Shown here piece after piece: positions 2,340-60,141 of a stretch of 64,000 nt of DNA. The notes below the pieces were generated by a model, which was not told the DNA's origin, did not search any database, and saw only the letters and a program-made list of their open reading frames with translations. Origin of the DNA: Candidatus Nitrosocosmicus oleophilus (lineage in GTDB: Archaea > Thermoproteota > Nitrososphaeria > Nitrososphaerales > Nitrososphaeraceae); assembly GCF_000802205.1 (NCBI RefSeq), contig NZ_CP012850.1:1550001-1614000 (forward strand), in the 5' to 3' direction. Every line of letters starts with the position of its first letter. Positions within the stretch are counted from its first letter, which is position 1. The position numbers and the translations under genes were made by a program.

Positions 2340-2429
2340 CGATGAATAACGACCTAAACGATTAAGCGTAAACCAAAACTAAAAAGAATGAATACTACTC
2401 TATGTAGGTATATACGTAATTGCAATTTA

Positions 2430-2782
2430 TTAACCTGATTTAACAAAAACCTTCCAGTAGAAATAATATTGTGCTTCACCTCCTTGTGGACCATGAGTTT
2501 TGTCATGTTCATCCCTATCTATTTGTGGTCCTATAGATGCCCGTGCACCTCCCGCTCTAGAGCCTCTAATATATTCAATATCATGCATATTACTTAGGTA
2601 AGAAAGAGTTTTGAAGTTAACTCTGTGCTCTACGGCCGCATGACCGCCATATTTTTGTCTTTATGAAAAGCAGGTACGATGCCCGAGTCGCGAATAATTG
2701 ATTCCCTAAAATTATTTTCATTAAAACCATCTACCAATTTTAATTGAAGATTGTACCCAGGATATTCATCTTCTTTGGTCAT
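2430..2782 (-). pseudogene. conserved-looking hypothetical protein broken by one frameshift
   Basis: Read from the ATG at 2782 on the minus strand, the frame starts MTKEDEYPGYNLQLKLVDGF and runs well until a T5 tract (2652-2656, A5 on the coding strand), where it hits a stop. Adding one A restores a continuous 117-aa protein that continues KYGGHAAVEHRVNFKTLSY, through IGPQIDRDEHDKTHGPQGG, and ends YYFYWKVFVKSG at the stop 2430-2432. The length, 353 bp, is exactly one base short of 118 codons. Both halves have coding character, so this is one gene with a homopolymer deletion, either real decay or an assembly error. No named family is recognised. Confidence 0.55.
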
Positions 2783-3083: not shown

Positions 3084-3569
3084 TTATTCAGTAATTTTTG
3101 ATTTATTTCGTGAAGACCAAAAGGTTTGTTTAGAATTTTTCCATTCTATGTAATCTTTCAGTACGTTCTTATGGTCAAAACCAAAATCCTCTTTATCAAT
3201 ATCTTTGATATCCACCCATTTAATCGAGGAAGCACCATCGCCTGCTATAGGTTCTTTGTTTTGACTATTTGGAGAGATCTTTCCTATAAACACTGTGGAC
3301 ATAATATGACCTCTGGGGTCTCTATTAGGATCAGAATATACTCCCAATATATGATCCAAGTCTACTTCTACAGATGTTTCCTCCATTACTTCACGTATAG
3401 CTGCCTCTTCTACTGTTTCTCCTATTTTAATGAAGCCACCTGGAAATACCATTTTACCTTCAAAGGGCTCTTTGACTCTTTTAATAAATAACACTCGAGA
3501 ATTATTATCAATTATCGTGTCAACAGTAGGAATAGGGTTCTTATATTCATCTTGTTTTGACATATCCAT
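3084..3569 (-). CDS. NUDIX hydrolase
   Basis: A 161-aa NUDIX-superfamily pyrophosphohydrolase, acting on nucleoside diphosphates linked to another moiety. The Nudix box runs from G45: G-x5-E (E51), x7, then REVMEE (59-64), which supplies the metal-binding glutamates. The usual glycine after the final E-x is Ser66, a mild deviation. Upstream, VLFIKR and MVFPGGF are the expected beta strands. Two in-frame ATGs (3569 and 3563) are possible; neither has a strong ribosome-binding site, consistent with leaderless initiation. Its tail is Lys/Ser-rich. The substrate cannot be told from sequence. It stands alone between a pseudogene and a small zinc-ribbon gene on the other strand. Confidence 0.92.
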   Translation of the reverse strand: MDMSKQDEYKNPIPTVDTIIDNNSRVLFIKRVKEPFEGKMVFPGGFIKIGETVEEAAIREVMEETSVEVDLDHILGVYSDPNRDPRGHIMSTVFIGKISPNSQNKEPIAGDGASSIKWVDIKDIDKEDFGFDHKNVLKDYIEWKNSKQTFWSSRNKSKITE

Positions 3570-3856
3570 TAAAAATTATACAACAAACAACTTAAACATC
3601 GCACTTGGATTCTCATTATCCAATATTTTTATCCACCAATTAAACCTTGAACATCTTACTCAGTTGAACAAGTATTTAGAAAAAGTTGTTCATAAAGTGA
3701 TATGATTTCCATTTTTATTATATTGATTAATATTTGTGTACTATCATTTAGAACCAGTTGAAAAGATTAAATTTCGATTAATAGTAACGATTAGAGCAAT
3801 CTATCAGCGATATTCATCATGACACACTTAACAGATAAAAAAGGTATATTTATAAA

Positions 3857-4072
3857 ATGACAAGGGAAAATAAATCTAATCCTATGATAATGTCTTTGCA
3901 ATCTCCTTATAAGAAATTTTCGTCAATAGGGGCATACGTTGATGTTAGCGGAAAGACAAAATACTGTGTAAGTTGCAGTAACACAGCTGCTCAAGAAGTA
4001 ATATTCACTGCAGATGGATCTACCATTTTAGAAAAATACTGTGACTCCTGCGCAAAAAAGAATATACCATAA
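3857..4072 (+). CDS. small zinc-ribbon-like protein
   Basis: A 71-aa protein whose C-terminal half carries two CxxC pairs: YCVSC and YCDSC separated by about 20 residues (AAQEVIFTADGSTILEK). This is the treble-clef/zinc-ribbon spacing seen in many tiny archaeal proteins. The N-terminal 35 residues are basic and without a clear fold. The start follows TTTATAAA directly, so either transcription is driven by an A-box further upstream (TATATTTATA) or the message is leaderless. It may bind nucleic acid or act as a protein-protein adaptor, but function is not known. It resembles the 42-aa protein at 60142-60270 in layout. Confidence 0.65.
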   Translation: MTRENKSNPMIMSLQSPYKKFSSIGAYVDVSGKTKYCVSCSNTAAQEVIFTADGSTILEKYCDSCAKKNIP

Positions 4073-4937
4073 TAGATTCCAAAAGATCGTTTATCTGATC
4101 TTCACTGTCAAAATAAGCAAGGCTCACTATTCCTAGGATCTCACTTGTGAAGATGAAAACAGAAAAACATTTGTTTTAAAGAGATGAAATTTAAGAATTA
4201 CCCCACTCCTTATACGGTCCTATATCGTTACTAAATTAGGTAGCACATTCTGTTGTATGTGAAACAAATTTGGCTCTAACCCTATTTTTTTTAAATGTAA
4301 ATGGAATTTATGATCCTAGTTCTAAAATAATAGTACAATGATCTTGGATCATCTTTCAAGCATGATGAAGATAATCTGGAGAGGCCGTTTGATTCTAAAC
4401 GGAGAAACTCTTATTGTTCCATGATTACAATTCCTTGGAATATTGGAAATACTGGAAATAATAATGATGCTTCTAGTATGGGCAATCATCTCAACAATTA
4501 GTGTTGCCATTCTCATTCAAGGAATGTTTGAAAGAAAGTAGGATTTCCAAAAATAATATTGGTACCTTGAGAATCTAAATTTGATGTAAAATATAGTAGG
4601 TGATACAGTTGTCCTTTATTGTCACAAATTTATTGAAAAAATTGTTCAAGGAGCAGATAGATCCACGTCATCAAGTTTCATTTTCATAGCACTGACATAT
4701 TAGTAAATAATCATTTCTCCTCCGATATCCACGATCTATAGAACAAAGAATACATAAACGGTTACTATGATTATTAGCGCATAACATTTGACAATTAAAT
4801 ATTAATTTATCAAGATTTAGGGAATTGAAATTCAAACATTCATTTCCCCCGTCTCTGGATCTCCTATATTTGGAACTTTAAAACTAGACCTGAAAAACAG
4901 TGAAAATTAGAGTATTGTAAGAATGAGAATTAAGATA
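4073..4937. other. intergenic region with one tiny membrane ORF candidate
   Basis: No ordinary gene is supported. A 25-codon frame at 4464-4541 (+) encodes MMLLVWAIISTISVAILIQG followed by MFERK, a single hydrophobic helix with a charged tail. It could be a microprotein but has no independent support. Confidence 0.3.
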
Positions 4938-5125: not shown

Positions 5126-5209
5126 AATGAAGTTGTTTCGTTACTCTTTAACTGGTGCTAGAGTAACCTCGTATGTATAAGATACTATTTAACGATAATA
5201 AAAATATCT

Positions 5210-5269
5210 GGAAATGGGAGGAATAAGATAATGGGGAGCATGAAATTAGCATCTTATCCTCCTCATTCC
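5210..5269 (+). ncRNA. array unit 2 hairpin; candidate small RNA
   Basis: A long imperfect stem pairs 5210-5229 (GGAAATGGGAGGAATAAGAT) with 5251-5269 (ATCTTATCCTCCTCATTCC). It starts about 20 bp after the second TATA-like box. The stem shares the ATG-G-AGGA core with unit 1 but the loop differs, as expected for a family with a conserved frame and variable interior. Confidence 0.4.
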
Positions 5270-5350
5270 ATGACTTGACAAATTACCTTTGTAAGTATAT
5301 CTAGGCCAAAGAATGTGAATAATATAGTATTTAACGATAATAAAAATAGA

Positions 5351-6946: not shown

Positions 6947-7162
6947 ATGACACATGTAGCAAAAATAACAGAAATAGTAGGCTCATCGGGCAAGAGTTGG
7001 GAGGATGCTGTTCAGGTAGCATTAACTGAAGCGACAAAAACAATTCGCGGTATAACTGGAATTGAGTTAACCGATATGACAGCTAGAGTAGATCCAAATA
7101 CGGGAAAAATATCTGAATATCATTCTACTGTAAAGATAGCCTTCGGGGTAGAACATTCCTAA
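6947..7162 (+). CDS. dodecin family protein
   Basis: A 71-aa dodecin (beta-alpha-beta-beta fold; dodecameric hollow sphere in characterised members). The family pattern is clear: VAKITEIVGSS, GKSWEDAVQVALTEA, then ITGIELTDM and STVKIAFGVEHS. Characterised flavin-binding dodecins use a tryptophan in the strand after the helix and a nearby glutamine. By eye those sites here are Gly/Ile and His, so flavin stacking may be absent or altered; this resembles non-flavin dodecin-like proteins. An ATTTAATATATA A-box lies 26-28 bp upstream of the ATG. Its role may be cofactor or ligand buffering. Confidence 0.9.
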   Translation: MTHVAKITEIVGSSGKSWEDAVQVALTEATKTIRGITGIELTDMTARVDPNTGKISEYHSTVKIAFGVEHS

Positions 7163-7884
7163 GAAGGCGATTTCCAAACTCTACCCATTTCCCTAATTTT
7201 TGAACATCAACACTTGAACTATTGCACTAGGATCTTCTTTTGAGAAATTGGCAACTTATTACTATTCTAGTTAAATCGAATATTTGTTAAATCAAATTCT
7301 TATAATCATAGTCGGGGGTTTAAAATTCATAAATTCTTTTTCCTTAGTACCGATCGATTCTGTTCAGGTAGTTTTTCTCTCCAATACGTACAATAAGTGT
7401 TCTATGAGCGCAGGATTTACATTTTTTTAGTTTAATTTTTTCCACATCAAATATTGTCCACCCCTTTTAGCTTGTTTGGTAATGTAGTTAATTCACAATC
7501 CGAGATCCTTGATCGTTGAAATTTCCATAATTCAATTGGAATCAGTTCGACGCTTTTTAAACCAATTGCACTAAGTATTATTGTACAATAAATAATACGT
7601 TCTTTTATTTATCTATTTGATCTTAATTTTTCAAAGTAATGCGTGTCCCTTGAGGCACAAAACTATCCATAATTAACCAAATATATTCTATGTATGTAAA
7701 AATATCTTACAAAGAATCAATAGAATTTATCCTGAAAAAATTGTTTTCATTCAAAGATCATAATCCATTGAAAAAATGAAAAATGAAATCTACTAATCCA
7801 TTAGACAGATTTACCATGAATAGTTTCATACCTGTCTGAAAGCTTGGTCCTAAACTCAAACTCAAATCGTAGGATATTTTCTTA
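7163..7884. other. intergenic region with a short CxxC ORF candidate
   Basis: No ordinary gene. On the minus strand a GTG-started 33-codon frame (7445-7344) reads MEKIKLKKCKSCAHRTLIV and ends NRIDRY, with one CxxC pair; a stop lies shortly upstream. It could be a fragment of a zinc-ribbon protein. The remainder is AT-rich with no recognisable element. Confidence 0.3.
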
Positions 7885-8676
7885 TCAATATCCTGTAAAC
7901 TCTTCAATCTTTATCCTATCTTTTGGGATTTCCAATTCTTTCTCTAGTAATGATTGCATCGATTTTAACATATCTGGAGGGCCACAAATATAGAATATTG
8001 CTTCGTTTAAAGTATTAGTGTCAACATGTTTTAAAATCATTTTTTTATCTATTCTGCCTTTTTCTCCATTCCATTCCTCTTCTGTGCCGAAATTGTTATT
8101 CCCCTCGGATTTATCATCACTAAGAGTATAGACTATCTTCATGTTTTCATTTAAAGCCGTCCAATCATCAAACTCTTTCTTAAAGAGTATGTTTTGTTGA
8201 TTCTTGTTTGAGTCAAACATTATTATTTTTAATGGTAGTTGTTTTTCTGTCGCGTAATTTAACATACTTCTAAACGGAGTCACTCCTATACCCCCGGACA
8301 GAAATATCAAAGGTTTTGAATAATCCGCTGGTAAAATAAATTCGCCCTCTGGAGCACTGACGTCAATCTTATCTCCCTCTTCTAAGTTTGACAGTCTCTG
8401 TTTGTATGGGGAGTCTCTTATTTTGGTGCTTAACATTATAAAATTCTCTGCTGGTGATGAAGAGATAGTAAAATGCCTAGTTGAGTCATTTGGGTCACCA
8501 TGTACATCATCTAAGTTAAAATAGGCATATTGACCTGCAGTATATTCAAACAAGGATGGCGTTTTGTTTACCTCTAATTTATCAAGTTCCTGATTAAACC
8601 TAAAAGATATGACATCGGTCCCCTCGATTTTTATTTTTTCAAATAATACAAGTCGAAAATCAAAAGATGGATTCAT
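7885..8676 (-). CDS. FAD/NAD(P)-binding ferredoxin reductase-like oxidoreductase
   Basis: A ferredoxin-NADP reductase superfamily enzyme transferring electrons between NAD(P)H and an acceptor through FAD. Counting from the ATG at 8676 (263 aa): beta-barrel FAD domain with RHFTIS (67-72), the FAD-binding RxxS/T motif; NAD(P)-binding domain with GGIGVTPFRSM (from about 128), and CGPPDM near the end, finishing EEFTGY as in FNR-like enzymes. No iron-sulfur or ferredoxin domain is fused. A longer frame opens at 8730, but its 18 extra residues are basic and not part of the fold. The ATG at 8676 follows AAGGAGA, and a TATA-like AAAATATAA sits about 40 bp upstream of it, so the inner start is preferred. 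The electron partner is unknown. Confidence 0.88.
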   Translation of the reverse strand: MNPSFDFRLVLFEKIKIEGTDVISFRFNQELDKLEVNKTPSLFEYTAGQYAYFNLDDVHGDPNDSTRHFTISSSPAENFIMLSTKIRDSPYKQRLSNLEEGDKIDVSAPEGEFILPADYSKPLIFLSGGIGVTPFRSMLNYATEKQLPLKIIMFDSNKNQQNILFKKEFDDWTALNENMKIVYTLSDDKSEGNNNFGTEEEWNGEKGRIDKKMILKHVDTNTLNEAIFYICGPPDMLKSMQSLLEKELEIPKDRIKIEEFTGY

Positions 8677-8808
8677 TATTTTTTTTCTTCTCCTTGTTAG
8701 TATGCTATCAACATTATATTTTAACTTCATAAGATGTAATTGCTGATCTCATAATGATTATAGACATTGTTATACGGGCAGTTTGTGAAAATCAGATCAT
8801 AGCGCCGC

Positions 8809-12316: not shown

Positions 12317-12397
12317 ATTAAAACCTAATTTCTAAAAAGTTCGAGCTCTTTGGGAAAGAAGTCAAACTAAAATAGTAATTTGAAACAGTTAAGAAAG

Positions 12398-12667
12398 TTA
12401 GGAAATACGAGAGTCAAATAGCTCTGAAAGTTTTGGTCCCACAAGATTAATAGAGTTATATCCATCAACCAAAATAACTGCTCCTTTTCCCTCTAGACTT
12501 TTAAGTTCATTTCTTAACCCTTCAAGAGTAAATGATTTTTCTTCTGAGGAAGGGTTACATACATGCTCGTATAATTCATCAATCGACCATGTCGCCTTTT
12601 CAGGCATCTCTACTGAACAGAGCTTGTATAGTTCATAAGCAATATTATTTTTTAAAGTAGAATTCAT
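12398..12667 (-). CDS. hypothetical small protein, paralogue of 56411-56725
   Basis: An 89-aa soluble protein of unknown function. It shares a pattern with the 104-aa protein at 56411-56725: WSIDELYEHVCNPSSEEKSF here against WTMEQLYENLFDNPTLNH there, then a helix, G-x-G or GKG-turn, hydrophobic strand, D-G-Y/D-x-L-N, and a final helix. The helix-helix-helix-hairpin layout suggests a winged-helix-like domain and thus possible DNA binding, an inference from pattern only. It lies downstream of a small frameshifted gene on the same strand. Confidence 0.6.
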   Translation of the reverse strand: MNSTLKNNIAYELYKLCSVEMPEKATWSIDELYEHVCNPSSEEKSFTLEGLRNELKSLEGKGAVILVDGYNSINLVGPKLSELFDSRIS

Positions 12668-12736
12668 AATTTTTATATCCTATTATTTGGAAATTGATTC
12701 TTTTCTCTGTTAACAAACTTCACGATGATGGATCAG

Positions 12737-12891
12737 TTAATGTTCTGCGTCTATTAGGACGTTATCGTCTTTGTTTTTATTTTTGTGTCCATCACCGTAT
12801 TTTTGTGTCCCACCTTCATCAATTAACCTTTGTCTTTCTATATAACTAGTAGGAATAGACTTGTTGTCTTTGTTTTTTTTTCCTCTTGCAT
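12737..12891 (-). pseudogene. small polar protein, frameshifted in an A9 run
   Basis: An ATG at 12891 begins MQEEKK and then leaves frame. One extra A in the T9 run at 12873-12881 (A9 on the coding strand) restores a 51-residue protein: NKDNKSIPTSYIERQRLIDE, then GGTQKYGDGHKNKNKDDN and VLIDAEH. The span of 155 bp is one base short of 52 codons. The reconstructed product is small, charged and without hydrophobic segments. A GGTATAAAT A-box lies about 25 bp upstream. The long homopolymer makes a sequencing error or transcriptional slippage plausible alternatives to decay. Confidence 0.5.
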
Positions 12892-13218
12892 TAGCGTATA
12901 TGTAAATTTATACCATATTATTTAACAGTAGATAAATTATATTTGGAACAAAAAAAGTATAATACATTACTGATATTATTTCAAAAAAGGCAGGTAACGT
13001 TTTTTGCTCTCATAAATCAGTATTAAAGATAGATCGATCATGATTAAATAAACTATAATAGATTATGATTTGATTAATCCCGCATAATATCATCATACAT
13101 GTTCCAACATTATCATTACTGCCTATCTATCAATCAAAATGAAGAATGATAAAAATCAGTTCAAATGGATTGGATTAACATGCATGCTACCGCGGTGTAG
13201 TATTCTATTGTTGTTATG
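12892..13218. other. intergenic region, nothing recognised
   Basis: AT-rich, no gene or notable repeat. Confidence 0.4.
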
Positions 13219-32282: not shown

Positions 32283-32538
32283 ACATTATAAGCTCCCTGA
32301 GTACTAGGAAAAATTCAAGATATATCTGTTGTACATCGATTTGCTTCTTATCATTTTATACTTGGTTACGTTACGTTAACGCCCAGTTTACAAACCATGT
32401 TATCTTATAAAGATGCATCTTTACAGATTATTTGTTTAATCTATTGTAAATATCATCAATTGAATGAATCCCTCCAAATGATAGTCTATAGTATTACAAT
32501 CAGAGAATAAAATACTGTCTATTGCTTTATCACTACTC

Positions 32539-33177
32539 TTGTTTATGGGGATCTATGTTATCGCATTTCCCATAGAACAGTACAGTAACGTCAAAGCACA
32601 AACACAATCTAAAAACACTACCACTTCTCCTCCTTCTATTACACCTATGAACGCTACTCAACTAAATGCTGCTTCCGCTAATGTTTCAAAACCGGTTGAT
32701 GGTTATGGCAGCCCTCCCACTGGTCCATTAACGGCTGTACGGCACGTGTTTGTCGATCCTACTCTCCGAGTATATCATTTTTGTAAACTTGATGATAAAA
32801 TCATGATGGTGTGTCAACTATATGACAGCAGTTCTCCAAATGCAACATTAATTGGAGTAGAGTATATGATCGATTCTAAAACATATCAAGCATTACCGGA
32901 TAGAGAAAAAGCAAACTGGCATTATCATAAAGATGAGCTTTCTCCAGACAGAGCAAATCAAAAGTCCCCATTACTAAATGATTTACAACAAAAAGAATGG
33001 CTAGTGAAATTATCAGAGTCATATGGGAAGGTTATACTGAACTGGAATCCTCTTGATACATTACCTGTTTTCCCATCACAAATTGAACAAATACAACATC
33101 CTTTAATGGTTAATCAAACAGTCAATAATAATACTGAAAAATATGTTGGAAGCTTTAACCAAACATTAGACTACTGA
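32539..33177 (+). CDS. secreted OBAP-like (DUF1264) protein
   Basis: A protein with the DUF1264 (oil body-associated protein) domain. Residues about 45-190 contain PTGPLTAVRHVFVDPTLRVY, HFCKLDDKIMMVCQLYDS, LIGVEYMIDSKTYQALPDRE, WHYHKDEL and the tail EIQ/QIQHP-like segment, matching the family found in plants, fungi and bacteria. The N-terminus is hydrophobic and ends near VKAQTQS, so it is probably exported. The annotated TTG start at 32539 leaves a short signal; the hydrophobic sequence runs upstream in the same frame (NKILSIALSLLLFMG), without an ATG, so the start is uncertain. Biochemical role unknown. Confidence 0.75.
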   Translation: MFMGIYVIAFPIEQYSNVKAQTQSKNTTTSPPSITPMNATQLNAASANVSKPVDGYGSPPTGPLTAVRHVFVDPTLRVYHFCKLDDKIMMVCQLYDSSSPNATLIGVEYMIDSKTYQALPDREKANWHYHKDELSPDRANQKSPLLNDLQQKEWLVKLSESYGKVILNWNPLDTLPVFPSQIEQIQHPLMVNQTVNNNTEKYVGSFNQTLDY

Positions 33178-33452
33178 TCTATGGTATGGGATATTGATAA
33201 CGAACAAACTAAGTCAAATAGTCTATCCAATCCTGTTCTAAATTAGCATGCCTGCGATACATATGAACCTTCAGATCAAATCATCCTGACCAAAGTAAAA
33301 AAAATACTTACATCTAGGAATTACAATCATCCTTCATTTTGGTTACCATAAAATGAAAAGATAGAGTATAGAATCAAACGAGAAAAAATGTAGTTAATAA
33401 AAAATCGGATCTCTAGTAGAGTTATTTAAATTTTTATACATAAGAAATTCCA

Positions 33453-35690: not shown

Positions 35691-36078
35691 ATGGGTGAAA
35701 TAATTGATAAAGTCAAGGAAAAATCAAAAGATGTAAAAGATGCAATTGTGGACTCTACGAAAGATGTTGCAGACAACGCAAAGGATACTTTAGACCAAAC
35801 CGAAAACATATCGGTAAATTCAACTGATAAAGAATAGGAAGAAGGAATTGCTGCGACAAACAAGAATAGAAAAAGTGATCCCTTAACAGAGTATTCAGAT
35901 TAGGAACCCATGACTCCTGCTAAATTACTTACAGGAGAACCTACGGCAGTCGAGACCCAAGCGATCAGAAAATTACTTCAGAAGGTCAGACAGGTACGAA
36001 TACTGAACAGGTACGAATACTGAACAGGCAAGCGAAATGTACCGAAAACGGGGAATGACTAAGATAGAAAAGAATTAA
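35691..36078 (+). pseudogene. decayed small-helix protein, paralogue of 58119-58523
   Basis: An ATG at 35691 (A-box TATTATAGTA about 28 bp upstream) opens a 48-aa frame: MGEIIDKVKEKSKDVKDAIV, DSTKDVADNAKDTLDQTENI, ending at a TAG (35835-35837). Readthrough continues EEGIAATNKNRKSDPLTEYS, D, then another stop, EPMTPAKLLTGEPTAV, and a frame change, matching the longer protein at 58119-58523. A 17-bp tandem duplication (unit CAGGTACGAATACTGAA, two copies starting near 35993) further disrupts it. The N-terminal 48-aa frame may still be expressed, since amphipathic coil is retained. Function unknown. Confidence 0.6.
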
Positions 36079-36418: not shown

Positions 36419-37183
36419 TTATAGAGGGATTCCGGGTCTGTTTTTTTCTATTGCTTCACTGTCATACTTAATCTCTTCTTTTGTTATTTCTTCTGCTATT
36501 GTTTTAGTTTCAGTTCTCGGTTTTTTCTTTACTATTACTTCCTCTCTAACAAAGGATTTTTTTGTAATTACAGGCTCTTCTTTCTTGATTGGAATCAAAA
36601 ATTCTTTCTTTGAATACATTGAATCTTCGCTCTCGGCTTCCTGAGGGGGTTCTTGATTGGAAGTATCATTCTTGTTTGAATTAATATTTGTTCCTTTGTC
36701 AAATGAATTATCATTCATTATGATATCTCTTCTTTCAATTGTTACATTTTCATGCATTAACTCGATCTCTACATTCTTACTTTCCCTTATAGGTTCTTTT
36801 GTAATTTTTATATTATCTTCAGTAATGTTCTTGGTTACATTTAGATCTTGACTTATCAATGGGATTGACATTTCTTCTCTCCTTATCTTATCCGGTGATC
36901 CTGAGGAAGAACTATCATTAAAGACACTTCCCCCAATCTTTTGTTCATAAGTTTGGAGATCTGACTCATTTAGCGAGAAGTTTAGGAAAACTCCATTAAA
37001 GTGTTTCACAGAAGTTTTCGGTAGATGGTATATTTTCTTATTAAACATACCCACTTCGGTAACGATATAGTCGCCTGATATTACTTTAATCGTACCAAAG
37101 TCTATGCCATTCTCACCTAGTGCTTCCTTTCCTATAACTTCATCCCATTTGATCTCATTGTTATTTTCAGATGACATATACAT
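36419..37183 (-). CDS. PRC-barrel-like plus DUF2382 (YsnF/AvaK) protein
   Basis: A 254-aa protein. The N-terminal domain (about 8-80) matches the PRC-barrel-like domains here (IKWDEVIGKEALGENGIDFG, YIVTEVGMFNKKIYHLPKT). The C-terminal region has the DUF2382 pattern in two parts: IPLISQDLNVTKNITEDNIK / KEPIRESKNVEIELMHENV and FLIPIKKEEPVITKKSFVRE / VIVKKKPRTETKTIAEEI. These repeat as beta strands with alternating K, E, T. DUF2382/YsnF proteins are linked to stress in bacteria, but the function is not established. No signal or membrane segment. The spacer between the parts is Asn/Ser-rich. It is in a run of three such genes on the minus strand. Confidence 0.8.
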   Translation of the reverse strand: MYMSSENNNEIKWDEVIGKEALGENGIDFGTIKVISGDYIVTEVGMFNKKIYHLPKTSVKHFNGVFLNFSLNESDLQTYEQKIGGSVFNDSSSSGSPDKIRREEMSIPLISQDLNVTKNITEDNIKITKEPIRESKNVEIELMHENVTIERRDIIMNDNSFDKGTNINSNKNDTSNQEPPQEAESEDSMYSKKEFLIPIKKEEPVITKKSFVREEVIVKKKPRTETKTIAEEITKEEIKYDSEAIEKNRPGIPL

Positions 37184-46274: not shown

Positions 46275-46364
46275 AAGTACGTCAATTTGAATTTTTACAG
46301 TTGGATACTGACTTTTACCATCATCTCTATCGAATCATATGACGACACTCCCGTCAAGACTGGT

Positions 46365-46820
46365 TTACATAATATTTCTAAAATTTTTAATCTCTATTGT
46401 TTCAAAATCTGTCCAAATATTATAGCCTGTAAAAATAAATACTTGAAAGTGTAGATGTGGAATATAGGTATACCCCGTCATTCCAACTTTGGATATCTCT
46501 TCACCGACATGAACCACTTGATTTAATTTGACCTTGGAGCTTTTGTAATCAAGGTGGTCATATCTGGAATATTCTCCATTTGAATGTTTGATAGTAATAA
46601 AATTAGTGTAAAACCAATATGATGCATCAGGTCCTCCAACGTTAGAGTCATCCTTGAGGTGACTAACTACACCGTCTGCTGCCGCAAGAACGGGTGTACC
46701 TATAGGAGCGATAAAATCCACTGCATTTCGAAGCTTACCAACATGAGCAGGAGAAGATCTATCTATCCTTTGTAACAATTCTCTTGGGATGGGTAATGCG
46801 TATATGTTTTTTGTTCTCAT
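46365..46820 (-). CDS. M23-family metallopeptidase domain protein
   Basis: A 151-aa protein of the M23/LytM peptidoglycan-hydrolase-like fold. The motif H-x-x-x-x-x-x-x-x-D (SPAHVGKLRNAVDFIAP) gives the AVDF-type of site; GTPVLAAADGVVSHLKDD follows, and the second His motif is HLHFQV near residue 127. Residues SRYDHLDY and VGEEISKVGMTGYT are typical. It lacks a signal peptide, and archaea lack peptidoglycan, so the substrate may be another glycan or peptide, or the domain may serve as a lysin-like scaffold. It is monocistronic. Confidence 0.85.
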   Translation of the reverse strand: MRTKNIYALPIPRELLQRIDRSSPAHVGKLRNAVDFIAPIGTPVLAAADGVVSHLKDDSNVGGPDASYWFYTNFITIKHSNGEYSRYDHLDYKSSKVKLNQVVHVGEEISKVGMTGYTYIPHLHFQVFIFTGYNIWTDFETIEIKNFRNIM

Positions 46821-47055
46821 ATAAAAAAAATATTCACTTTATGTTGATCATAATTTAATAAACTATAATAAGACCATCTCTACATCATGTAGGCATATTA
46901 GATATTTGACGATTGGACTATCTGACTATTCTTTCCGGTATCCGATTCTACTACTTTTTATATTTTTGTTTATTTTGTTAAATTACTACCATGTAGTGAG
47001 AATGTTTTCTTGACAGGTTCATAAATATAAAAGGGATGTTAAATGTATTAGATCA

Positions 47056-56410: not shown

Positions 56411-56725
56411 TTAGTTTTCTACTATTTCTCGATGTTCGTTAAAAAAATGTATAAGCAAATTTCTGGAGAATCCATCTATATTCAACTTATCATCGTCAAA
56501 AGAGATTAAGCCGTGACCTATAACCCAATTCATATCCTCCGTAAAACGTTCAAAGGTTAACATATTATGATTTAGTGTTGGGTTATCAAATAGATTTTCA
56601 TATAATTGTTCCATTGTCCAGAGTGTTTTATTAGAATCGTAAATACCCTGTAAGTGCCTGCATAAAACGAGTATCTCTTTTGTTGGTGTGTTACCCTCAA
56701 GACTCATGTTTATTTCTTTATTCAC
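56411..56725 (-). CDS. hypothetical small protein, paralogue of 12398-12667
   Basis: A 104-aa protein (a second ATG lies 7 codons in). It shares its centre with 12398-12667: LWTMEQLYENLFDNPTLNHN, then MNWVIGHGLISFDDDKLNID and a C-terminal helix. The predicted helix-turn-helix and wing layout suggests DNA binding without proof. It ends at FFNEHREIVEN. The gene stands alone; the PRC-barrel-like gene 56794-57033 is 68 bp upstream on the same strand, so they could be co-transcribed. Confidence 0.6.
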   Translation of the reverse strand: MNKEINMSLEGNTPTKEILVLCRHLQGIYDSNKTLWTMEQLYENLFDNPTLNHNMLTFERFTEDMNWVIGHGLISFDDDKLNIDGFSRNLLIHFFNEHREIVEN

Positions 56726-56793
56726 AGTTCAAAGATTTTCTTATTCTATGATATGTTTAATTACTAAAAAAAATATTAACCCTTCGATAATAT

Positions 56794-57033
56794 CTAATCT
56801 TTTATCTTGTAGATGTTCTCAGCGTCTTCCTTTGTTACCCTAAACCACAAATTATGCCCATCATATCTATCGACTAGGTTTTTAGGAATTGAATATACTT
56901 CTTTGTCCACTACACCAGCTTTAGTAATAACATTATCCAGTCGAATTTCCTGTACTTCTCCGAGGTCAGCGTCGTTTATACCTCTTGCCTCTTTTTTAAT
57001 AACATCGTTCCAGTCAATATTGTTGTTACTCAT
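56794..57033 (-). CDS. single PRC-barrel-like domain protein
   Basis: A 79-aa protein from the ATG at 57033 (two codons inside the longest frame). It is just one copy of the domain that heads 24983, 36419, 37785 and 43102: IDWNDVIKKEARGINDADLG, EVQEIRLDNVITKAGVVDKE, YSIPKNLVDRYDGHNLWFRV. It thus shows the domain can stand alone. No DUF2382 part. An ATTTAAAT-like A-box is present upstream. Function unknown. Confidence 0.65.
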   Translation of the reverse strand: MSNNNIDWNDVIKKEARGINDADLGEVQEIRLDNVITKAGVVDKEVYSIPKNLVDRYDGHNLWFRVTKEDAENIYKIKD

Positions 57034-57097
57034 GACCAATATTAATTATCATAATTTAAATAGATATACCGTAATTTTCATAAAGTATGAGATAAAG

Positions 57098-57271
57098 ATG
57101 TCCTTGGTAAATGATTAAAGACAAGAAAGAGTCACAAGAGAAAAGTATACGGTCTTTCGTATTGAGGTTATAAGCGCTGATGAACCCCTAAGATTAGCAC
57201 ATGAAGGTGGATTGCTTCATAATGCCATTGCCAGTCATTATTTCTTAATAACGTGGAGCTTAGATTCGTAA
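57098..57271 (+). pseudogene. short coding remnant with early stop
   Basis: From ATG at 57098 the frame has a TAA at codon 7, then reads RQERVTREKYTVFRIEVISA, DEPLRLAHEGGLLHNAIASH, YFLITWSLDS to the stop at 57269-57271. The latter looks coding but has no start of its own and no family is recognised. It may be a decayed 5' region or a missed upstream start. The region to 57412 is otherwise noncoding. Confidence 0.35.
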
Positions 57272-57412
57272 TACGGAGTAAATCCTTTGTTGTCCCATTA
57301 CTTGCACCGTTAACTCTTCTCCAATAGTAAACCTCAGCAAGAAACAAGCCTTGTGCATAAATTGCCGAATCAGAAATATTTTTATATTTTTATTTATATT
57401 TTATTGGTCAAC

Positions 57413-57643
57413 ATGAACAGAAATGTTCCCGATAATTTGTCTAATCAGATAACAAAGGCAAATAAACCAACAACATCAACTCATGTCAATAAAAAAGCCA
57501 TATCATGTCACCGGCTGTATTGTTTATCTAAAGTGGTTTGCAGATGTACAGAGTGCTCGTTCTATTATTGTTATGAACATGTCCAAACACATCCGCATCC
57601 AAGAGAAAAACTTGAGATTATAGAGGACACAATAAGCAATTAA
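57413..57643 (+). CDS. AN1-type-like zinc-finger protein
   Basis: A 76-aa protein from the ATG at 57413; the longer frame from 57353 adds a hydrophobic leader of unlikely codons (KYFYIFIYILL). Cys/His pattern in the second half: CHRLYC, then CRCTEC, then YYCYEHVQTHPHP, with a C-x2-C-type core and H-x5-H-type end typical of AN1 fingers. The first 30 residues are polar (DNLSNQITKANKPTTSTHVN). TTATATTTTATT upstream of the start is a candidate A-box. AN1 fingers often bind ubiquitin-like or protein partners; the function here is unknown. Confidence 0.65.
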   Translation: MNRNVPDNLSNQITKANKPTTSTHVNKKAISCHRLYCLSKVVCRCTECSFYYCYEHVQTHPHPREKLEIIEDTISN

Positions 57644-57758
57644 TAAGGATGTTGTCTTCTCTCCATCCAGTCTACTAGTATCCATTTTTTTCCTATTTAT
57701 TATGACAGTTAATTGTTCGTATTTCTCTTGCAATTCTCCCTCACTTCTCATTTCAAAG

Positions 57759-58145
57759 CTATTGGTTTATTGTTGGAAAGTTGGGAAAATTATATTGTTG
57801 ATCGATATTCACATTATAAATCAACTTACTTATGAGTAGTTGAAATTGTCTCTTATAGTTTATTTCTGAAAATCGTTTAACAGAATCACTAATCCTCTGT
57901 CTTTCCTCATCAGCCACGTCTAGTGCGGATGCTACTACTTGAGATGCTTGTTCTAACGAATCATATTGATAAATTGTTGGGACGAACTCTGTTTGTCCTC
58001 CAGTAATAGGTACAACAGCAATCAAACCAGCACTCATTGCCTCTACTATGGAAATTCCAAAATGTTCTCCCTCTCGTGAATGGAAATATACTTTACTTTT
58101 CTTCATTATCCCGATTAACTCCTCAGAGCTAGTGACAAATTCAAA
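57759..58145 (-). pseudogene. glycosyltransferase group 1 C-terminal fragment
   Basis: The C-terminal part of a GT4-type glycosyltransferase: SSEELIGIMKKSKVYFHSRE, HFGISIVEAMSAGLIAVVPI, GGQTEFVPTIYQYDS, and the end of the second Rossmann domain. The N-terminal half, including the acceptor-binding domain, is missing; the match continues just past the first ATG (58106) to about 58145 and then the sequence changes to another gene on the other strand. So it is a 5'-truncated gene at a breakpoint. Family is clear, activity not expected. Confidence 0.7.
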
Positions 58146-58523
58146 GAAAAAGCAAAGGATGTAAAGGACGCAGTTCTAGATGCTACAAAAGACGTTGAAG
58201 AAGAGACCAAGATTACCACAGATCCATCGTCAAAAGCATCGTCGTCAAATTCTAGTGATAGAGAATACGAAGAAGGTACTGCTGGAACAAATAGGAATAG
58301 GCAAAGTGATCCCTTAACAGAGTATTCAGATAAAGAACCAAATACTCCTGCTAAGATTAACGCAGGCGAACCAACAGCAGTCAAAAGAGACCCAAGCGAT
58401 CAGAAGATTACATCAGAAGGTCAAAGTGGGACAAGTACCGCTGAAGCACAAGAAGAATATCGTAAATGTGAGATGACAAAGGTGGATTCGCATAGTCATT
58501 CCCATGAGTATTCGTCATGCTAA
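58119..58523 (+). pseudogene. small-helix protein lacking its start, paralogue of 35691-36078
   Basis: An open frame of 134 codons with a stop (TAA, 58116-58118) just before it and no ATG start. It reads SDKFKEKAKDVKDAVLDATK, DVEEETKITTDPSSKASSSN, YEEGTAGTNRNRQSDPLTEY, SDKEPNTPAKINAGEPTAVK, RDPSDQKITSEGQSG, ending with a His/Ser tail (HSHSHEYSSC). It corresponds to the protein at 35691-36078 without its first five residues, so only the start is lost at the junction with the glycosyltransferase fragment. An alternative upstream non-ATG start cannot be excluded. Confidence 0.6.
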
Positions 58524-58677
58524 TATGGTCATTAATCCGCACCGATCAAAAATTATTCTGAAAATAAAGCAAGATGTTCTTTTAATTTTTATAATCTTTT
58601 AACAATTACACTGAAAGTCCGATTTTCTCTAAATTATTTATCTTAGACCTAAACGAAAAAATCACACACTATTAAAA

Positions 58678-58788
58678 TTATTTTATATTTTCAAGTTCTT
58701 TGGAACATTCATTACAGACGGTCTCATCTTCTTTTGAAGTAAATAATTTGCCACAGGATGAACATTTTATTGTATGTTCTTTATACAA
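58678..58788 (-). CDS. small zinc-ribbon ORF
   Basis: A 36-aa frame from TTG at 58788: YKEHTIKCSSCGKLFTSKED, ETVCNECSKELENIK. Two CxxC pairs (CSSC and CNEC), 14 residues apart, make a typical zinc ribbon. An ATG at 58801 in another frame starts MLERI and runs into a stop; removal of one G (AGGATTG to AGATTG) would join it in frame as MLERLYKEH. So the true gene may be frameshifted. It is one of several tiny zinc-binding proteins here. Confidence 0.4.
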   Translation of the reverse strand: MYKEHTIKCSSCGKLFTSKEDETVCNECSKELENIK

Positions 58789-59151
58789 TCCTTTCTAACA
58801 TTTGCAACAAATTATTAAAACAATTACTATCTTGTATTTGTCCTTATTCTATCTCAAATCGCTAGTGAAAAGAATAGGCGAAAATTATCTTAACTGCTTC
58901 CCTGGACAAGCAATAGAGGAGTGGAAACAGTACCTACATGAAGTTAGTTTACCATGAGAAAAGATAAAAGGTCGCACTGGTTCATTGATGGCATAAGAAA
59001 TTAATAAATTATGAATATTTTTCGTGGCGTTAACCAAACTCCTAAAGCTTTGATTACAATATTAAGACGTAAATCTAAATGGATTTTTTGAACTTCACAA
59101 TAATCAACGATGTTTTATTAGGAAATAAGTCAAGTTAATTTTCTAACACAT
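58789..59151. other. intergenic region, nothing recognised
   Basis: No gene seen beyond the possible upstream start of the preceding zinc ribbon. Confidence 0.4.
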
Positions 59152-59832
59152 TTACCTCAGGATCTCGATTACCTTTTTGGCTGCTAGAAAAGCAGATGCA
59201 GGATTCTGTCCAGTTATTATCCTTCCGTCACTAACTACAAAAGGTTTAAAGTTTTCACTTTTTTCAAAATTGCTTCCCACTTCTTTGAGACGATCTTCCA
59301 AAGAAAAAGGAACAGTCTTTTCTAGTTTTACAGTTTCTTCCTCATCATTTGTAAAACCAGTTACTCTTTTGTTTTTTAGTATAGAATTTCCATTTTTGTC
59401 TTTCGCCTGCAATAGTCCAGCTGGTCCATGACAAACGGCAGAAATAACTTTATCATCGTTGTAAAAATCTTCTACTATTTTCTTTAAATCTTTGTCTTCA
59501 GATAAATCCCACATTGGTCCATGGCCACCAGGTAGAAATAAGGTATCATAGTCACCAGAATAAATATCAGATAGAAGTTTGGTATTTTCTAATTTCTCTT
59601 TGGCATCTTTGTCATTTTGAAGGCGCTTAGTATATTCAGTTTGATTTTCAGGTTGTAAACTCTTTGGATCAACAGGTGGTTTTCCACCATTTGGGGATGC
59701 GATTGTAACTTCATATTCATTGTCTGTAAATTCATAGTAAGGACTAGCAAATTCTTCAAGCCAATATCCGGTTTTATGTCCGCTGTTTCCTAATTGATCA
59801 TGAGAGGGTAAAACAAAAAGGACCTTTTTCAT
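59152..59832 (-). CDS. DJ-1/PfpI family protein, Hsp31-like
   Basis: A 226-aa DJ-1/PfpI superfamily protein, class I glutamine-amidotransferase fold. The nucleophile elbow is SAVCHGPAGLL with C134 and H135; E26 or E27 (YWLEEFASPYYEF) could be the third residue, as in Hsp31-type proteins. Other motifs: FLPGGHGPMWDLSEDKDL, KRVTGFTNDEEETV and DGRIITGQNPASAFLAAKKV. Hsp31-like members include glyoxalase III and chaperones, so it may detoxify methylglyoxal or protect proteins. Length is right. It is monocistronic. Confidence 0.9.
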   Translation of the reverse strand: MKKVLFVLPSHDQLGNSGHKTGYWLEEFASPYYEFTDNEYEVTIASPNGGKPPVDPKSLQPENQTEYTKRLQNDKDAKEKLENTKLLSDIYSGDYDTLFLPGGHGPMWDLSEDKDLKKIVEDFYNDDKVISAVCHGPAGLLQAKDKNGNSILKNKRVTGFTNDEEETVKLEKTVPFSLEDRLKEVGSNFEKSENFKPFVVSDGRIITGQNPASAFLAAKKVIEILR

Positions 59833-60141
59833 ATCTTTTGATCTCCAACAAACTATAAAATGCTCATGGTAAAATAGTAATAGTTTAGCTAACTTAATTT
59901 AATGTCTCTAATTAAGGATTATTTAGATTCTAGATATTTTTATCAATTTAGCTTGTAATTTTATTATTTTCTTCAACAGTGTATGACTGAGACAAAGTCC
60001 TGTAATACTTGATACTGACGCGAAATCAATCCAGAGATTAGATTAAAATCATGAATGTGCTTGCAAAGAAATCTTTTATCATATGATTGTTCAAACGGTA
60101 ATTCACGATTTTATTTTACGCTGCCAAATGTATAGGAATTC
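59833..60141. other. intergenic region, nothing recognised
   Basis: No gene seen. Confidence 0.4.

Follow-up and report, generated by a model that had tools for sequence, protein, structure and literature searches.

Within the window, i.e. the whole stretch of 64,000 nucleotides analyzed here from the genome of the soil ammonia-oxidising archaeon Candidatus Nitrosocosmicus oleophilus (a single contig of 3.43 Mb, 99.75% complete), two open reading frames meet head to head (Table 1). The frame on the minus strand, which spans 57759-58175 from stop to stop, corresponds to a glycosyltransferase (GT) and matches the Pfam family Glycos_transf_1 (PF00534; 1.2e-09) at profile positions 76-131 of 172, and the frame on the plus strand (58119-58523) encodes a small, hydrophilic and helix-rich product that showed no match in Pfam or NCBIfam. 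Own-genome searches covered the whole 3.43 Mb contig, and the relatives compared were 15 genomes of the genus Nitrosocosmicus, the own genome included. A plasmid search with positions 57000-59000 as query gave no match.

Table 1. Features of the locus, the second small-gene copy and the contig of the relative used for comparison
Feature	Coordinates	Strand	Basis or status
Probable deletion junction; switch from GT to small-gene homology at 58132/58133	58130..58133	.	Column counts
GT4-type glycosyltransferase, C-terminal remnant, about 124 codons plus stop	57759..58132	-	Homologue comparison, PF00534
Small-helix gene lacking codons 1-5 (start included) and its promoter box; open from codon 6 (Asp) to stop	58133..58523	+	Homologue alignment
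Partner small-helix copy; start and TATA-like box present, two in-frame TAGs and frame shifts	35691..36043	+	Pseudogene
Contig G013:C242 of Candidatus Nitrosocosmicus sp. WA-bin7 (JARFXS010000089.1), 11.4 kb			Closest GT match, same genus

When the GT frame was compared with the intact GT4 (Glycos_transf_1) homologues of Nitrosocosmicus, which have 407-465 codons, it aligned with their C-terminal part but lacked their N-terminal domain entirely and their C-terminal one in part. The original prediction had described a fragment without its N-terminal half; the gene is indeed truncated, but the loss amounts to about 70% of the GT, only about 121-125 codons being kept in the window. A functional GT4 enzyme has complete N- and C-terminal domains, and the match of the remnant to the profile starts at position 76 of 172; given the fold, we presume that a protein with these parts missing is not an active enzyme. 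The remnant was the only own-genome match to a C-terminal GT query that found matches in 9 of the 15 genus genomes, and therefore the absence of this GT is common in the genus. Its closest match, the GT of WA-bin7 (hereafter G013), is 80% identical. The remnant departs from its homologues at only 1 of 35 conserved columns (13 GT rows), and comparison with the G013 GT gave a dN of 0.099 and a dS of 0.452 (dN/dS about 0.22). These data suggest that the GT was under selection until recently and, since both frames are still open, that the loss is recent.

On the other side of the junction, the small genes of the relatives have five more N-terminal codons, including the start, than the window copy, in agreement with the expectation that only the first few codons (here codons 1-5) were missing. 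In six of the nine inspected copies that have an ATG, the one at 35691 included, a TATA-like box (TTATANTATG) precedes this codon by 33-39 bp; the box is absent upstream of the window gene. The first in-frame ATG left in this gene is at 58473. The possibility that a working small protein is translated from an unusual start was rejected, as no ATG, GTG or TTG precedes 58473 and only ATT codons, at 58212 and later, are available. A scan for sigma-70-type promoters, which are not expected in an archaeon, found no more of them than in shuffled sequences. The window copy departs from the family at 5 of 49 conserved columns, the fourth highest count of the 35 rows compared, and only three degraded copies show more (the count used the 35 genus rows of a total of 39, the matches in L013, L017, L018 and L088 being left out).

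The copy at 35691 is the only other member of the small family found in the own genome. It had been proposed to show the start that the window gene has lost, and the start is present; nevertheless, this copy is itself a pseudogene. Its two in-frame TAGs and frame shifts mean that no intact family copy was found in the own genome.

To locate the junction, each position was compared with 8 GT and 10 small-gene homologues, chosen for having the region (in the small-gene row from G008 a repeat takes the place of the normal leader). The homology switch was sharp, GT-like up to 58132 and small-gene-like from 58133 on, and it confirmed that two truncated genes meet head to head. At 58128 and 58129 the window agrees with 6 and 7 of the 8 GTs, respectively, and with none of the 10 small genes; at 58134 and 58135 it agrees with 0 and 1 of the 8 GTs and with all 10 small genes. 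Only 58130-58131 fit both sets of homologues, and therefore any microhomology amounts to at most about two bases, as judged from diverged relatives. The overlap of the reading frames that had been noticed near the joint does exist (58119-58175), but it is a trivial by-product of reading from stop to stop and contains no shared coding sequence. A search for flanking repeats across 56500-60000 found only short, imperfect ones, none of them usefully spanning the joint; one of these, of 14 nt, lies at 58142-58155, ten bases from the joint, and its other copy is at 59299. Among the 15 genus genomes searched, the own genome alone has this joint.

In G013:C242 the small gene (2346-2638, minus strand) and the GT (3137-4470, plus strand) are oriented head to head as in the window, and the 5' part of the GT plus about 500 bp separate the small gene from the rest of the GT. 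The G013 GT is longer than the window remnant but has two frame shifts, and the G013 small gene is a short form that lacks the N-terminal helix and has a frame shift; therefore, the ancestor is not seen intact. No relative among the 15 genomes has the arrangement of the window with both genes complete; such a relative is what the original prediction had named as its refutation. In a further relative, G014, a fragment from the N-terminal part of a GT is found close to a short-form copy of the small gene, in the other relative orientation (G014:C128, L083:1012-2605).

Beyond the pair itself, six segments of G013:C242 have their best own-genome matches at contig positions 1553085, 1562368, 1582401, 1596361, 1607728 and 1608246, all within the 64-kb window but in a different order, and the segments 5207-5348, 7047-7323 and 8662-8725 match only outside the window. 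Between the two regions, adjacency has been conserved for the GT-small gene pair alone. The window stretch thus appears, from these matches, to be a homologous but expanded and reshuffled counterpart of the G013:C242 neighbourhood. In window coordinates, segments of that contig fall at 3085-3610, 12368-12998, 32401-33185, 46361-46879 and 57728-58551, reordered and spread over ~55 kb.

The original prediction had called for a search for the missing GT part elsewhere in the genome, and such a search was run at the protein and DNA levels. When the own genome was searched with the N-terminal 281 residues of the G013 GT, nothing matched at E values up to 10, and the G013 DNA from the small gene to the end of the GT hit nothing there beyond the known fragment and some short matches that look like chance. 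The protein query itself gave matches in 10 of the 15 congeneric genomes, a positive control indicating that the own-genome null result comes from a working search.

Taken together, these results are probably best explained by a single deletion between divergent GT4 and small-helix genes that was sealed through end joining at sites sharing little or no microhomology. An ancestor would have carried a GT4 glycosyltransferase gene and a gene for a small helix-rich protein in divergent orientation, and one deletion would have removed the intervening DNA together with the 5' parts of both genes. The GT would have lost about 1 kb of its coding sequence and the small gene its promoter and codons 1-5, along with the upstream region that the two genes shared. 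Judged from G013, the deletion would measure at least 1.4-1.5 kb. Both remnants are now pseudogenes, neither of them having a plausible start plus a native promoter.

A breakpoint of either a deletion or an inversion had been proposed, and a breakpoint is supported; the gene order in G013 and the lack of any match to the GT 5' part favour the deletion. An inversion or translocation, after which the GT 5' part and the start of the small gene moved elsewhere and were later lost, is unlikely. It would suit the much rearranged neighbourhood, in which the segments of the G013 contig lie over about 55 kb in another order, and the GT N-terminal fragment of G014 with its opposite relative orientation. 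Nevertheless, a plain inversion would have kept the GT 5' part, of which the own genome shows no trace; the 3.43 Mb contig accordingly yielded no reciprocal joint, and the pair has the same relative orientation in G013, so that no inversion is needed.

It is very unlikely that an unrelated copy of the small gene received or captured a GT fragment at its 5' end and that the proximity of the two genes in G013 is coincidental in a multi-copy family. The family does reach up to 8 matches per genome, and at the DNA level the window copy resembles a copy from G010 (78% identity) more than that of G013 (72%), no GT match having been found in G010. A tree of the small family in which the window and G013 copies were held together had a lnL 3.2 lower (p-AU 0.22), so that their joining is neither supported nor rejected (30 of 39 rows were used, with the second G008:C41 copy, two partial copies from G009, three degraded ones and three rows of other genera left out). 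In G013, however, the small gene was located at just two places, so that a chance position near the GT in the right orientation is improbable, by a rough estimate below 1 in 1000; the G013 contig is, moreover, a homologous neighbourhood. The deletion reading presumes that the window and G013 small genes are orthologous. Finally, an assembly artefact at the joint is scarcely credible even though the joint is known from assembled sequence alone, because the genome is a nearly complete single contig and the small copy carries extra changes at conserved sites, as in a real remnant.

A single deletion, the preferred reading, would place the locus beside the truncated prokaryote pseudogenes born by deletion, in which two truncated genes likewise meet at a sharp joint, and here too the own genome yielded no match to the missing GT part. 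The locus differs from them in that both partners, presumably once divergent, are truncated at their 5' ends; otherwise nothing is unusual, and the locus is a case of ordinary genome decay. The listing from a literature search on archaeal pseudogenes formed by deletion with microhomology contained nothing directly relevant. The locus is nevertheless a trap for annotation, as both open frames are remnants rather than genes and the only other copy of the small protein found is also broken. It provides at most one data point on how glycosyltransferase genes turn over in Nitrosocosmicus, a genus whose several GTs are tied, in a passage of PMC11559005, to a glycocalyx-like surface. GT remnants or broken GTs lie beside small-gene copies in three genomes (the window, G013 and G014), in differing states. 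That rearrangements recur at the GT-small gene neighbourhood in the genus, possibly as part of the turnover of cell-surface glycan genes, seems quite doubtful to us.

Two further features of the window were noted. A frame at 57353-57643 encodes 96 residues rich in Cys and His (CHRLYC...CRCTEC...CYEH) and possibly zinc-binding, its only Pfam match being weak and below the cut-off. The small gene at 56794-57039 belongs to a family that is multi-copy in the window, with DNA matches near 36458, 43041 and 25031, and that adjoins small-helix genes in the relatives G010, G009 and G007.
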